DNA of 64,000 bases from Chromatiales bacterium (GTDB lineage Bacteria > Pseudomonadota > Gammaproteobacteria > RBG-16-57-12). Positions 34,666-52,398 of this stretch are shown here, piece by piece. The first letter of the stretch is position 1, and each line of letters starts with the position of its first letter. The stretch lies in assembly GCA_026989455.1 (NCBI GenBank), contig JALSJH010000009.1, positions 41,401 to 105,400 of the forward strand, in the 5' to 3' direction. The notes beneath the pieces are model-generated. The model searched no databases. It saw only the letters and a list, made by a program, of their open reading frames with translations, and was not told where the DNA came from. The position numbers and the translations under genes are program-made.

Positions 34666-35679
34666 ATGTCAGCTAACGACTTACTCTCACAAGATGAAAT
34701 CGATGCGCTGTTACACGGCGTAGATGATGGCGATGTTGAGACCGATAATATGGCCGATGATGGCCAGCCTCACAGCTACGACTTTACATCCCAGGATCGT
34801 ATTGTGCGGGGGCGGATGCCGACCCTGGAGATGATTAACGAACGTTTTGCCCGTTTTTTTCGTTTTAGTATTTTCAATATGTTGCGTCGTTCGCCGGAGA
34901 TCACCACCAGTGGTGTCGAAATGATCAAGTTTGGTGAATATGTCCACACTCTTTATGTTCCGACCAGCTTGAATATGATCAAGGTAAAGCCACTGCGTGG
35001 AACTGCGCTGTTTGTTATTGACCCTAAATTAGTCTTTATTCTGGTGGATAACTTTTTTGGCGGCGAAGGGCGTTTTCATGCGCGTATTGAGGGGCGGGAG
35101 TTTACACCGACGGAGCAGCGTATTACCCATATGTTGTTGCAAGAGGCGTTCAACGATATGCGAAAATCCTGGGCTCTGGCGATGGATGTGGAGTTTGAGT
35201 ACCAGAGTACAGAGGTTAATCCGCAGTTTGCCAACATTGTAAGTCCTACCGAAGTTGTGGTGGTGAGTAAATTCCATGTCGAGTTGGAGGGTGGCGGTGG
35301 CGATTTTCACATTACCATGCCTTACTCAATGCTGGAGCCGATTCGTGAGCTGTTGGATGCGGGAGTCCAGAGTGATCGTTCAGAACGAGATGATCGCTGG
35401 ACTGATGCGCTGCGTGAGGGTGTTCAGGATGCACTGGTGGAGGTCGACTGCCCTCTGACCCGGGCAACTATGTCGCTGCGGGATGTTGTCAAGTTACAAG
35501 CGGGTGATGTTATTCCCATTGAGATGCCGGAGTCGTTAACCGGATATATTGAAGGCTTGCCGATGTTTCGTGGCCAATATGGCAGCCATAAAGGTAATGC
35601 GTGCCTGAAAGTAGATGAAATTATCTCTCGCCCTGAACAGAAACCGAGCCTAACCATAGGAGGCGATGCCGATGAGTGA
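34666..35679 (+). CDS. fliM: flagellar motor switch protein FliM
   Basis: N-term LLSQDEIDALLHGV CheY-binding type motif; RIVRGRMPTLEMINERFARFFR. Confidence 0.98.
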   Translation: MSANDLLSQDEIDALLHGVDDGDVETDNMADDGQPHSYDFTSQDRIVRGRMPTLEMINERFARFFRFSIFNMLRRSPEITTSGVEMIKFGEYVHTLYVPTSLNMIKVKPLRGTALFVIDPKLVFILVDNFFGGEGRFHARIEGREFTPTEQRITHMLLQEAFNDMRKSWALAMDVEFEYQSTEVNPQFANIVSPTEVVVVSKFHVELEGGGGDFHITMPYSMLEPIRELLDAGVQSDRSERDDRWTDALREGVQDALVEVDCPLTRATMSLRDVVKLQAGDVIPIEMPESLTGYIEGLPMFRGQYGSHKGNACLKVDEIISRPEQKPSLTIGGDADE

Positions 35680-45296: not shown

Positions 45297-46025
45297 ATGT
45301 GCGATTCAAATACCCACCCAGAGATGCTCTCTATAGCTGAAAAGCTAGTGGTCGAATTAAAGGCTGGAAATGATGAGCAAGTGACACTGCTGGTCGATGA
45401 GCTGGCTCATATTAGAGAGGGTGAGCTGTTTCAGGAGATCGGCAAGCTAACTCGGGAGCTACACAGCTCAATTGCCAGCTTCGAGGTGGACTCGGCGCTT
45501 TGTGATATTACCAAAAGCGATATTCCCGATGCAAAAGAGCGCCTGAGTTACGTTATTACCATGACCAATCAATCCGCCAACAAAACACTGACGGCGGTTG
45601 AAAATGCCATTCCTCACTGTGAAATGTTACAGGAGAAGTCCATTGAACTGCGAGCCGAGTGGAAGCGTTTCGTAAATCGAGAAATGAGTGCAGAAGAGTT
45701 TCGCCGGGTAAGTAAAACCCTTGAAGTGTATTTGTCTGAAAGCGAAGGAGAGTTGGACTCGGTTAAAGGTGCGCTAAATGAGATTTTGATGGCTCAGGAG
45801 TTTCAGGACCTGACCAGTCAAATTATCAATCGTGTGATCAAAATGGTTGAAGAGGTAGAGGCTCATCTGGTCAATATGATAAAGGCCACGGGTGGTATGC
45901 CGATTGCGGACAAAAAAGATGAAAAAGGTAAGTTGGAGGGGCCGCAAGTTCCCAGCTTATCCAAATCTGATACGGTGAGTGGGCAGGATGAAGTGGATGA
46001 CCTGCTCTCTAGTCTAGGCTTTTAA
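45297..46025 (+). CDS. cheZ: chemotaxis phosphatase CheZ
   Basis: QEFQDLTSQIINRVIKMV catalytic helix and C-terminal DEVDDLLSSLGF CheY-binding tail. Confidence 0.95.
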   Translation: MCDSNTHPEMLSIAEKLVVELKAGNDEQVTLLVDELAHIREGELFQEIGKLTRELHSSIASFEVDSALCDITKSDIPDAKERLSYVITMTNQSANKTLTAVENAIPHCEMLQEKSIELRAEWKRFVNREMSAEEFRRVSKTLEVYLSESEGELDSVKGALNEILMAQEFQDLTSQIINRVIKMVEEVEAHLVNMIKATGGMPIADKKDEKGKLEGPQVPSLSKSDTVSGQDEVDDLLSSLGF

Positions 46026-46034
46026 GGGTTAATT

Positions 46035-48152
46035 ATGTCGTTTGATGCTGATGACGAAATACTTCAGGACTTTCTGGTTGAGGCGAGCGAGATCCTTGAG
46101 GAGCTATCTGAGCAACTGGTCGAGTTAGAACACTCCCCCGATGATAGCGAACTGCTGAATACTGTTTTTCGTGGCTTTCATACCATTAAGGGCGGTGGAA
46201 GCTTTCTCAGCCTTACAGGCTTGGTGCAGGTTTGTCATAGTGCGGAAGATCTTTTTAATCTTTTGCGCAATGGTGAGCTTTCAGTCAATGCAGAGTTGAT
46301 GGATGTGGTTTTGCGGGTTCTGGATGTGGTGAATGAGCAGTTTGATCAGCTGCGCGAGGGGATAGAACCCTCACTGGCACCACCCGAATTATTGCAACAA
46401 CTTGAAGCGCTGAAGTCGCCAGGCTCAGCGAAAACTGAACCCGTAGCCGCGCCCGCACCTGAAACAGAGACTGCCCCAGCTACACCCGCTGTGGAAGAGT
46501 CGGCGAGTGCCAGTGACGATGTTTTTTTCGAAGCGGATGCGATCACTGATAGCTCGAGTGATTCCGATGAAATCACCGATGAAGAGTTTGAAAATCTGCT
46601 GGATCTGTTGCAGGGTGAGGATGGCAAAGAGGTGGCAACCGCGCCGGCATCCGATGAGATCACTGATGATGAGTTCGAAGCGCTACTCGACCAGCTACAT
46701 GGTAAATCAGGCGCACCTGCCCCCGTTACCGAAACTAAAGCAGTGCCGCCAACTCCCCCTGCTCCCAGCGCCAGCAGTGATGCTGATGAGATCAGCGAAG
46801 ATGAGTTTGAGGCGCTGCTGGATAAAATTCACGGTAAAAGCGGAGAGTCGACTCAAAGCACCCCGGCAACCGCTCCGAAAAACCCACCAGAAACCTCTGC
46901 CGCTAACGAACCCGCAAAGGCTGCTTCGCCAGCGGCTGCAAAAGAGCCTGTGAAAGCGGCAACTCCTAAACCTAAAGCAAAAAAACCAACCGCACCCCAG
47001 GCTGAAACAACGGTGCGGGTAGATACCAGTCGCCTAGATGACATCATGAATATGGTGGGTGAATTGGTGTTGGTCAGAAACCGTCTTGCAACACTTGAAG
47101 CGGTTCAAGTGGATGAGGAGATGGCGAAAGCGGTTGCCAACTTGGATGTAGTCACCGCTGACCTACAATCTGCTGTAATGAAAACCCGTATGCAGCCAAT
47201 CAAGAAAGTCTTTGGTCGTTTTCCGCGGGTTGTGCGCGATCTGGCGCGCAGCCTGAAAAAGGAAGTCGATCTGGTGCTGGAGGGAGAAGAGACCGATCTG
47301 GATAAAAACTTGGTTGAAGCGCTTGCTGACCCACTGGTTCACCTAGTGCGTAACGCGGTTGATCACGGTATTGAAATGCCGGATAGCCGTGTTAAGGCGG
47401 GAAAAGAGCGGATAGGAACCGTTGTTCTTTCGGCCGAGCAGGAGGGTGATCACATTCTTCTGACCATTTCAGATGATGGCGGCGGCATGGATGCGGATGT
47501 GTTGCGTAATATCGCGGTGAAGAAAGGTGTTCTGGAGCCGGATGCGGCCGCTCGTCTGAGTGACCAAGAGTGTTTTCAATTGATTTTTGCACCCGGATTT
47601 TCCACCAAGGATGAAATTTCAGACATATCCGGTCGTGGTGTCGGTATGGATGTTGTCAAGACCCGTATCGTACAGCTAAATGGCTCTGTTGAGATCAACT
47701 CTGAGCTGGGTGTAGGCACCACGCTACAGATAAAAGTACCGCTGACATTGGCGATTATGCCAACCCTAATGGTTTCACTTAAAAAACAGACTTTCGCCCT
47801 GCCACTGGTTAATGTGAATGAGATTTTTCATCTGGATCTTCGCCACACCAATGTGATCGATGGCCAGTGTGTCATTATGGTGAGAGAGAAAGCACTGCCC
47901 CTCTTTTATCTCGCGGATTGGCTGGTAGGTGGTAGTGAGCAGAAGGATGAGGGGCACGTTGTGGTGGTCAGTGTGGGTTCACAAAAAGTGGGCTTCGTGG
48001 TTGATCAGCTGGTTGGTCAGGAGGAGGTTGTGATTAAACCACTGGGCAACATGCTGCTTGGGACGGGTGGCTTAGCAGGCGCTACAATCCGGGGTGATGG
48101 GAAAATTGCATTGATTCTGGATGTGCCCAGCTTGATGAAATCTTACGCCTGA
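46035..48152 (+). CDS. cheA: chemotaxis histidine kinase CheA
   Basis: HPt (FHTIKGGGSFLSL), H-kinase dimer, HATPase (HLVRNAVDHGIE), CheW-like C-term. Confidence 0.97.
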   Translation: MSFDADDEILQDFLVEASEILEELSEQLVELEHSPDDSELLNTVFRGFHTIKGGGSFLSLTGLVQVCHSAEDLFNLLRNGELSVNAELMDVVLRVLDVVNEQFDQLREGIEPSLAPPELLQQLEALKSPGSAKTEPVAAPAPETETAPATPAVEESASASDDVFFEADAITDSSSDSDEITDEEFENLLDLLQGEDGKEVATAPASDEITDDEFEALLDQLHGKSGAPAPVTETKAVPPTPPAPSASSDADEISEDEFEALLDKIHGKSGESTQSTPATAPKNPPETSAANEPAKAASPAAAKEPVKAATPKPKAKKPTAPQAETTVRVDTSRLDDIMNMVGELVLVRNRLATLEAVQVDEEMAKAVANLDVVTADLQSAVMKTRMQPIKKVFGRFPRVVRDLARSLKKEVDLVLEGEETDLDKNLVEALADPLVHLVRNAVDHGIEMPDSRVKAGKERIGTVVLSAEQEGDHILLTISDDGGGMDADVLRNIAVKKGVLEPDAAARLSDQECFQLIFAPGFSTKDEISDISGRGVGMDVVKTRIVQLNGSVEINSELGVGTTLQIKVPLTLAIMPTLMVSLKKQTFALPLVNVNEIFHLDLRHTNVIDGQCVIMVREKALPLFYLADWLVGGSEQKDEGHVVVVSVGSQKVGFVVDQLVGQEEVVIKPLGNMLLGTGGLAGATIRGDGKIALILDVPSLMKSYA

Positions 48153-50069: not shown

Positions 50070-50927
50070 ATGGCACGTAAATATCGCAAGCGTCACATGG
50101 AGCAAGACCCAGATATACATGAACGCTGGATGGTCTCCTACGCTGATTTCATTACCCTGCTGTTTGCCTTCTTTGTGGTTATGTACGCCATTAGCATCAG
50201 TAAAGAGGGGACACTGAGCGTGGTGAGTGATTCGATTGAGCGGGCATTTACCCCACAAGATAGAAGTAAAGCGACCTCTGAAGCGGATGCTACCTCTTCA
50301 ACAGGTAATGCCCCCAGTCTCATTGACCTGAATGGCGGAGAGGGTGTGCTTGATGGGCATGAATCACCATCGCCTCCGGTACCGGAAATATCTGAATCAA
50401 TGGCAAAGTTACAAGAGCTGGCAACTCAGGGGGTGATGAAGCCGGTTGTTGATGAGGTAGAGAAAGCGCTCGAATCCCTGATTGAAGAGGGGGGGGTCAA
50501 CATTTCCAGTGATGACCTTTGGGTGCAGATCGACATCGAAAGCAACCTGCTCTTTGAGAGTGGTTTAGCTCAGCTCAATAACAACGTCACCTCGACGATG
50601 CGTTCACTTGCGCGGGTGCTCGAGCAATTCCCCCATAATATCCAGGTGGAGGGGTACACCGACAATATCCCGATTCAGAACGAAATTTACCCTTCAAACT
50701 GGGAGCTGTCGGCTGCCCGCTCAGCCAGTGTGGTTCACCTTTTTGCGCAAAATGGAGTGGATCCAAGGCGGATGTCGGCTGTCGGCTTTGGTGAGTTTCG
50801 GCCAGTGGCAGGGAATGATACCCCACAAGGACGCGCTAAAAACCGGCGTGTGGTTATTGTAGTTTTGGCAGATCAACAGGCGGGTCGACTGATTGATCTT
50901 CAGCAGCAATTGCAACTGAATGACTAA
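50070..50927 (+). CDS. motD: flagellar motor stator protein MotD (MotB/OmpA family)
   Basis: WMVSYADFITLLFAFFVVMYAIS; OmpA-like EGYTDNIPIQNEIYPSNWELSAARSASVV. Confidence 0.93.
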   Translation: MARKYRKRHMEQDPDIHERWMVSYADFITLLFAFFVVMYAISISKEGTLSVVSDSIERAFTPQDRSKATSEADATSSTGNAPSLIDLNGGEGVLDGHESPSPPVPEISESMAKLQELATQGVMKPVVDEVEKALESLIEEGGVNISSDDLWVQIDIESNLLFESGLAQLNNNVTSTMRSLARVLEQFPHNIQVEGYTDNIPIQNEIYPSNWELSAARSASVVHLFAQNGVDPRRMSAVGFGEFRPVAGNDTPQGRAKNRRVVIVVLADQQAGRLIDLQQQLQLND

Positions 50928-51099
50928 TAAATTAATCCCTTTGTGATGGCTTTTGCTTCCCATTCTAGATGGATTGAAATCTACACCAATCCTCATATCC
51001 CTATGTTTTTTAAGTATTTATACATTATTTGACCTTCCCACTGTCAGCACGGAAATAGATATCCCCCTGAGCATGGCGACTTCAGTGTATATTTTAGGG

Positions 51100-51126
51100 T
51101 AAGTGAATCGATTGTTGTGACGATAA
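51100..51126 (+). promoter_or_regulatory. predicted sigma28 (FliA) promoter upstream of MCP gene
   Basis: TAAG-N15-GACGATAA versus consensus TAAA-N15-GCCGATAA. Confidence 0.6.
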
Positions 51127-51201
51127 CAGCGGGTATAACCAAAAAAACTTTTACGCATAGGATAAATATAGCGTGATGAAGCATTGTATGGAGGGAGCTG
51201 G

Positions 51202-52398
51202 GTGAAGGGTCGTGATCGAATATTTTTGGGTGTGGTCTTAACACTTATTGTGGCGGGAGTCATGTCTCAGTTCTCCTCTCCTCTCTATAGCATCCCCCTG
51301 CTTTTTGTGGTCTCAGGATACTGGGTCTATAGCCTCTTGCGGATGAAAAACAGTGCTGAAACGGCGGCCAAAACAGCACTAAATAATGCTCGCCAAGAGA
51401 TAAAACAGAAAATCATCGAAATCAACCAAGAGACGGCTCAATTTGGTGTGGCACAAATCAGTGCGGTTTCTGAAGGGTTGGGAAGTGCTCGCACTATTAT
51501 CTCCAGCGCGGTAGAGGGCTTGTCCATGGGTTTTCAGGGGATGGAGAGTAAATCCCGGCTCCAGCTCGATTTGAGTCTACAGATGATGCAGCGTTTGTCT
51601 CCTGATGATGGTGCCGATGGGAAAAGCTTGGCAGATGAAGTGTCAGATATCATGGGGATGTTTACGGAAAATCTAACCATGATGCGAGATGATAGCTTGG
51701 CCATGGTTACGTCGCTGAACGCGATGAAGGAGTATATTTCCGAGGTTGATCGTCTACTTCATGAGATTGATGGTATTAGTGCACAAACAAACCTGCTGGC
51801 ACTCAATGCGGCCATTGAAGCGGCAAGAGCGGGTGAGCAGGGGCGCGGTTTTGCGGTAGTGGCGGATGAGGTGCGTGCCCTCTCGACACGAAGTCATCTG
51901 TTCAGTGAGCAGGTCAGAGGCAAGTTCACCGTGGTTAAAAGGGAGATGGAGGTGGCCAGTCGTGTGGTGGGTAAGATGGCCTCCCGTGATATGACAATGT
52001 CTCTCAACTCTAAAGACCACCTTAATGACTTGATGCAAGATATTGAGGATATTAATCTCTATGTGGCGCAGAAGCTTAACGAAGTCTCCGGTGTTTCTGA
52101 AGAGCTGGCGGTCGATGTGGGCAATGCGGTGCGCTCACTCCAATTTGAGGATATATCACGACAGCTGTTAGAGCATATGGAGCACCGTGTACAGGGTCTG
52201 AACCAAGTGATTGGCTGTGTGACTCAATTTGAGAGTGACATGGTTGAGATAATGGCCTCTACTGGTGGTCAGCAAGAGGTGCTCTATTTTGAGCGCATTG
52301 AGCAGTTGCAAAACCAGCTCAGTGACATTATGGCCGCTATTCGTGATACCCCTGTCAGTCATGAAAATATGGATGAAGGAGAGGTAGAGTTATTTTAA
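51202..52398 (+). CDS. methyl-accepting chemotaxis-type signalling protein without a large periplasmic domain
   Basis: GTG 51202 preceded by GGAGGG; short N-term TM pair; tip [44 protein letters not shown]-term [14 protein letters not shown]. Confidence 0.85.

Follow-up and report, generated by a model that had tools for sequence, protein, structure and literature searches.

We found that the chemotaxis kinase CheA encoded in the window (the whole stretch of 64,000 nucleotides analyzed here) bears three copies of a conserved short motif in the linker between its P1 and P3 domains, where a P2 domain is undetectable. The best supported reading, to which we assign a probability of roughly 60%, is that these motifs act as short linear peptides that dock CheY, standing in for P2. 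P2 is missing from more than half of CheA proteins (PMC10782961), and a repeated peptide resembling that of the flagellar motor offers a directly testable answer to how such P2-less versions find CheY.

The gene order in the window is fliM, then fliA-cheY-cheZ-cheA-cheB-motC-motD. The CheA is an F6-type flagellar version with a P1-P3-P4-P5 core in a cheY-cheZ-cheA-cheB-motCD cluster, the class name being assigned from the cluster and its relatives rather than from a class-specific model. Its relevant features are:

46035..48152, + strand: cheA, 705 aa, with P1 (Hpt), a long linker and P3-P4-P5; P2 undetected by Pfam
46056..46355, + strand: P1/Hpt domain, aa 8-107 (Pfam)
46416..47006, + strand: P1-P3 linker, aa 128-324, about 200 residues, predicted to be disordered except for three helices
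46566..46625, + strand: motif copy 1, DEITDEEFENLLDLLQGEDG, aa 178-197; genome-wide match to the motif profile at E 3.2e-7
46653..46712, + strand: motif copy 2, DEITDDEFEALLDQLHGKSG, aa 207-226; genome-wide match at E 3.4e-12 to the motif profile, of which this sequence is itself a part
46785..46844, + strand: motif copy 3, DEISEDEFEALLDKIHGKSG, aa 251-270; genome-wide match to the motif profile at E 1.2e-10

Beyond Hpt (8-107), Pfam recovers H-kinase_dim (325-384), HATPase_c and CheW in this protein, whereas its P2 and CheY-binding (PF09078) families match neither this CheA nor that of P. aeruginosa; as a contrast case, the CheA of L243 matches PF09078 at 62.2 bits. An AlphaFold2 model built with 33 sequences gives pLDDT <50 across most of residues 132-331 and predicts no compact fold between P1 and P3, just three short helices at 182-192, 211-221 and 255-265, which are the motif positions. 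A P2 fold hidden in the linker is detected by neither approach; the three motif copies described in the earlier note are confirmed by translation of 46035-48152, and its lack of a folded P2 is supported in that none is detectable. The linker shares with P2 its location between P1 and P3 and the proposed docking of CheY, but P2 is a folded domain, whereas the linker displays no family match, no predicted fold and short helices. A fold search of the PDB ranked CheA kinase-core structures at the top, with no P2 structure among the 50 matches listed, and is uninformative for the linker. The genome encodes a second CheA (L004), for which a folded P2 was also considered because its linker is domain-like in looks, but Pfam makes no such call.

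The motifs are the sole strongly constrained sequence in the linker: in comparison to a sister species 59 of their 60 residues are identical, as against 89/137 in the linker outside them. In DNA the three copies are identical to each other at just 40-43/60 bases; hence, a recent tandem duplication can be ruled out as their origin. Chance can likewise be dismissed, both by a reversed control and by the specificity of the motif for CheA: the pattern D-E-F-[DE]-x-L-L-D-x-hydrophobic-[HQ]-G, searched at the DNA level, is present in 71 of the 274 genomes sampled from the class, while the reversed control matches none, and in nine whole genomes CheA is the only match to the motif profile at E<1e-4. 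Wherever the CheA was read, the pattern matches lie inside it, the exception being a fragment adjoining a broken cheA in G229. This fragment (L168, G229:C14) is located between fliA and motC, with cheY, cheZ, most of cheA, and cheB seemingly deleted or broken. The letters of the motif themselves were not found in the text of the literature searched. The Pfam family SHOCT (PF09851), named for its C-terminal position, shows a sub-threshold likeness to the motif in the window CheA (24.9 against a cut-off of 27).

The motif is not peculiar to the window genome but common to nearly all sampled CheAs of this type, including those of Pseudomonas. We observed CheAs of the same kind with one to four copies in 80 named GTDB genomes (Pseudomonas, Stutzerimonas, Shewanella, Pseudoalteromonas, Marinobacter, Marinomonas, Oceanospirillum and others) and with one to eight copies in the 274-genome sample of the class, for which gene calls were mechanical and many genomes are drafts or MAGs, such that single absences may reflect gaps. 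The logo of 429 distinct copies from outside the window's genus reads D-E-I-[TS]-[DE]-[DE]-E-F-[ED]-x-L-L-D-x-L-H-G-x-G, with F at 100% (demanded by the search pattern), E at 98%, the second L at 99% and D at 96%. Other classes of CheA in the sample lack the motif: that of L243 scores as PF09078, and some with short linkers have neither. Long CheA linkers were seen in L217 (G036; about 560 aa, eight motif-like copies) and L230 (G228; about 450 aa, five copies). The CheA of G028 has degenerate motifs, as read by eye. The CheA of G194 (L178:474-2612) retains the core ITDDEFEALL in each of three long repeats of the form LPEGVDPDG[ED]ITDDEFEALLNQRD, in which the L-H-G-K-G tail is lost and replaced; this protein as a whole scores 32.6 against SHOCT, above the cut-off of 27.

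A clue to a partner comes from the CheY-binding peptides of the flagellar motor and the phosphatase, which are encoded in the same window together with the proposed ligand:

34666..35679, + strand: fliM (TIGR01397)
34684..34713, + strand: N-terminal CheY-binding motif of FliM, LSQDEIDALL, aa 7-16, a comparison sequence (consensus LSQxEIDxLL; PMC5677366)
44861..45253, + strand: cheY, encoding the proposed ligand, with R92, Q94, V103 and K117 (E. coli numbering)
45297..46025, + strand: cheZ
45984..46022, + strand: C-terminal peptide of CheZ, QDEVDDLLSSLGF, a comparison sequence at the protein end

The EIDALL of FliM sits in the groove between α4 and α5 of CheY (PMC9126983). The CheA core ITDDEFEALL aligns with the literature consensus LSQxEIDxLL without gaps over all ten positions, which are mostly alike in chemistry: a helix cap L/I-S/T-x-x-E is followed by a hydrophobic, an acidic and any residue and then L-L. 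The CheA version differs in its location in a kinase linker, its repetition, the Phe for Ile and the D/E for Gln, and the D-x-L-H-G-K-G that follows the core. LSQDEIDALL is the best non-CheA match to ITDDEFEALL among the ~28,900 ten-mers of the window, in a frame chosen after the alignment had been seen. With an 11-mer frame, FliM ranks third and CheZ fifth (tied with another); with a 15-mer frame FliM is third in a tie and CheZ is not in the listed top. An eight-column profile built from other genomes places FliM first (14.0) and CheZ second (10.7) among the other ORFs of the window, scores that are within reach of the best matches in shuffled ORFs (mean maximum 12.6), and a 12-column profile places FliM second, with the best CheZ match lying elsewhere than at the CheZ tail. 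The CheZ peptide shares with the CheA motif a D-E/D-V-D-D-L-L-x-x-L core and the spacing that follows it, but is C-terminal and single-copy, and its match is weaker and frame-dependent. The likeness to FliM and CheZ drawn by the earlier note is genuine, FliM being the top ten-mer, although its strength varies with the frame and CheZ falls behind FliM. We regard the FliM likeness of the CheA motif as suggestive; the resemblance is strongest for FliM because its site was known beforehand.

The CheY side points in a compatible direction. Among 102 distinct CheYs partnered with motif-bearing CheAs, Q94 and V103 are each present in 101 and K117 in 95. The CheY of E. coli, a species with a P2-bearing CheA, has N94, A103 and E117. 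The same positions were reported by Ortega et al. to change upon the switch from CheA-F6 to CheA-F7; they place 92, 94 and 103 on the P2 face and 117 in the helix contacting FliM (PMC7184735). These differences would fit another dock on the same face, and other causes are possible. In P. aeruginosa, CheY colocalizes with CheA at the pole (PMC12410967).

Taking these features together, we infer that each motif would form an amphipathic helix, with an I-[ST]-x-x-E cap followed by E-F-[DE]-x-L-L-D, and sit in the α4-β5-α5 groove of CheY in the manner of the FliM N-terminal peptide. CheY docked in this way would be raised in local concentration beside P1 for phosphotransfer, and several copies in a flexible linker could provide avidity or capacity. 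The idea of a CheY-docking array, advanced in the earlier note, is supported in part by the undetectable P2, the conserved motifs as predicted helices in disorder, the FliM-like core, the survival of the motif in genomes that lack other candidate partners (below) and the P2-face residues by which these CheYs differ from the CheY of a P2-bearing CheA.

Several points count against CheY docking. Where FliM has Ile, the CheA motif has Phe, and its L-H-G-K-G tail is without a close FliM counterpart. CheY-P is the preferred ligand of the FliM and CheZ peptides, but unphosphorylated CheY would be expected to bind better to a substrate dock; hence, the array could alternatively hold CheY-P back instead of feeding phosphotransfer. 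The sub-threshold SHOCT match shows that unrelated proteins can have helices that begin in a similar way. Since E. coli CheA is able to phosphorylate CheY without P2 (PMC10542144), docking may not be required at all. Finally, a CheA region within this linker has been experimentally reported to bind ParP in Vibrio.

This last point introduces the main rival, or a second function, which was absent from the earlier note and is serious: the motifs could be the LID (localization and inheritance domain), a ligand of the ParP AIF domain that anchors CheA arrays at the pole, with CheY uninvolved and the FliM likeness fortuitous. In Vibrio the LID is situated between P2 and P3, and its presence is reported solely for CheAs with ParC/ParP (PMC5706961, PMC7534058). 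The motifs, too, precede P3 within the linker; at least one copy is present in every ParP-positive genome for which the CheA linker was readable, and conservation elsewhere in the linker is slight. Hence, the two probably overlap, the LID probably being contained in the region of the motifs, although the identity of LID and motif is something we infer. The window genome itself has ParC and ParP, which are encoded with CheW and a DUF2802-like gene on another contig (L009). This ParC-ParP-CheW-DUF2802 set usually follows motD; here it is found at L009:3870-6303 (G000:C22), as against 50070-52398 of the window, where motD is followed by an ORF resembling a soluble receptor (51184-52398), with metH coming next. 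A P. aeruginosa record (NZ_CP131792.1, L015:13249-15019) has ParC and ParP homologs beside motD/cheW, although PMC12410967 describes this species as lacking related genes.

Genome-wide searches for ParP, using a profile built from 23 AIF domains, and for ParC, using one built from ten sequences, in which true ParCs score >260 bits and generic ParA proteins <190, speak against ParP as the only partner. A strongly diverged ParP (e.g., that of G161) scores no higher than CheW, so the absence of ParP is best judged together with that of ParC. Both are missing from nine motif-bearing genomes, namely G025, G172, G013, G174, G156, G194 and G029, which are at least 95% complete, along with G004 and the genome of L147 (G275); thus, unlike the LID as reported, the motif also occurs without ParC/ParP. 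Where fetched, the clusters of these genomes read cheA-cheB-motC-motD-cheW or shorter, and in a CheA-core tree built quickly with FastTree their ParC/ParP-minus label maps to seven changes, at least four of them on well supported branches. A further four genomes (G113, G059, G158 and G268) retain both ParC and the motifs, although their clusters contain no ParP. A ParP-only function is weakened by these genomes, and we consider it rather unlikely. As a second role of this region, ParP binding would nevertheless be compatible with CheY docking. The score of the tail drops in two groups of ParP-less genomes (15.2 and 12.5 versus 19.9; Mann-Whitney p=0.04 for the group without both genes, uncorrected for kinship), which hints at such a role and weakly indicates the conserved L-H-G-K-G tail as the ParP-binding part. 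A clean split, with the core for CheY and the tail for ParP, can be rejected as more than a hint: the core score is also lower in the group without both genes (p=0.013, uncorrected for kinship).

Other candidate partners are also absent from some motif-bearing genomes; the argument from absence draws on several lineages and on genomes with a completeness of at least 95%. No CheZ match is present in G025 and G172, both motif-bearing and without ParC/ParP, which rejects CheZ as the partner. No FliM match is present in the motif-bearing G037, a single contig of 100% completeness that encodes a CheA with three motifs, CheY, CheZ and ParP. A CheY ortholog, on the other hand, was found in nine of ten tested genomes of this partner-lacking kind; in the tenth (G156) the contig ends beside cheZ-cheA. 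With ParP, ParC, CheZ, FliM and (see below) FlhG/FleN each missing from some motif-bearing genomes, CheY, CheA itself, CheW and the receptors are left as candidates.

It is accordingly conceivable, if improbable, that the motifs bind within the array, to another CheA domain, CheW, CheB or a receptor, and tune the geometry of the kinase. Every array of this kind contains CheA, CheW and receptors, which the absence tests therefore leave in as candidates, and the P2 of E. coli also binds CheB. Against this, the motif has no known likeness to ligands of those proteins, whereas its core matches a CheY ligand, and the AlphaFold2 helices are isolated, of low confidence and embedded in disorder, a monomer model being a weak test. 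Binding to the MinD-type ATPase FlhG/FleN, which interacts with FliM via the FliM N-terminus (PMC12826062), is largely refuted and very improbable, for four Oceanospirillum/Marinomonas-type genomes with two to four motif copies (those of L085, L110, L143 and L155) have no ortholog, their best matches being at the MinD level (50-71 bits versus 339-414 for true orthologs).

A broader version of CheY docking can be tentatively entertained, though we would not favor it on present evidence: within a single large bacterial class, kinase, phosphatase and motor may all offer CheY the same kind of peptide, with a variable array of one to eight motor-like peptides replacing P2 in the kinase, their copy number setting the docking strength and their tail binding ParP. 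Were this true, CheY docking and polar anchoring would compete or co-operate at one site. The motif is present in Pseudomonas, Shewanella and many relatives, and would serve to separate CheY docking from the reported ParP binding of the linker.

We also observed that the N-termini of ParPs (L009:4664-5365; L015, L079, L090 and others) have a conserved L[DEN]xLL-like stretch, for example QSYLDALLQEA, that resembles EIDALL. ParP contacts ParC through its N-terminal part; ParC is related to FlhG within the ParA/MinD group, and FlhG in turn binds the FliM N-terminus.
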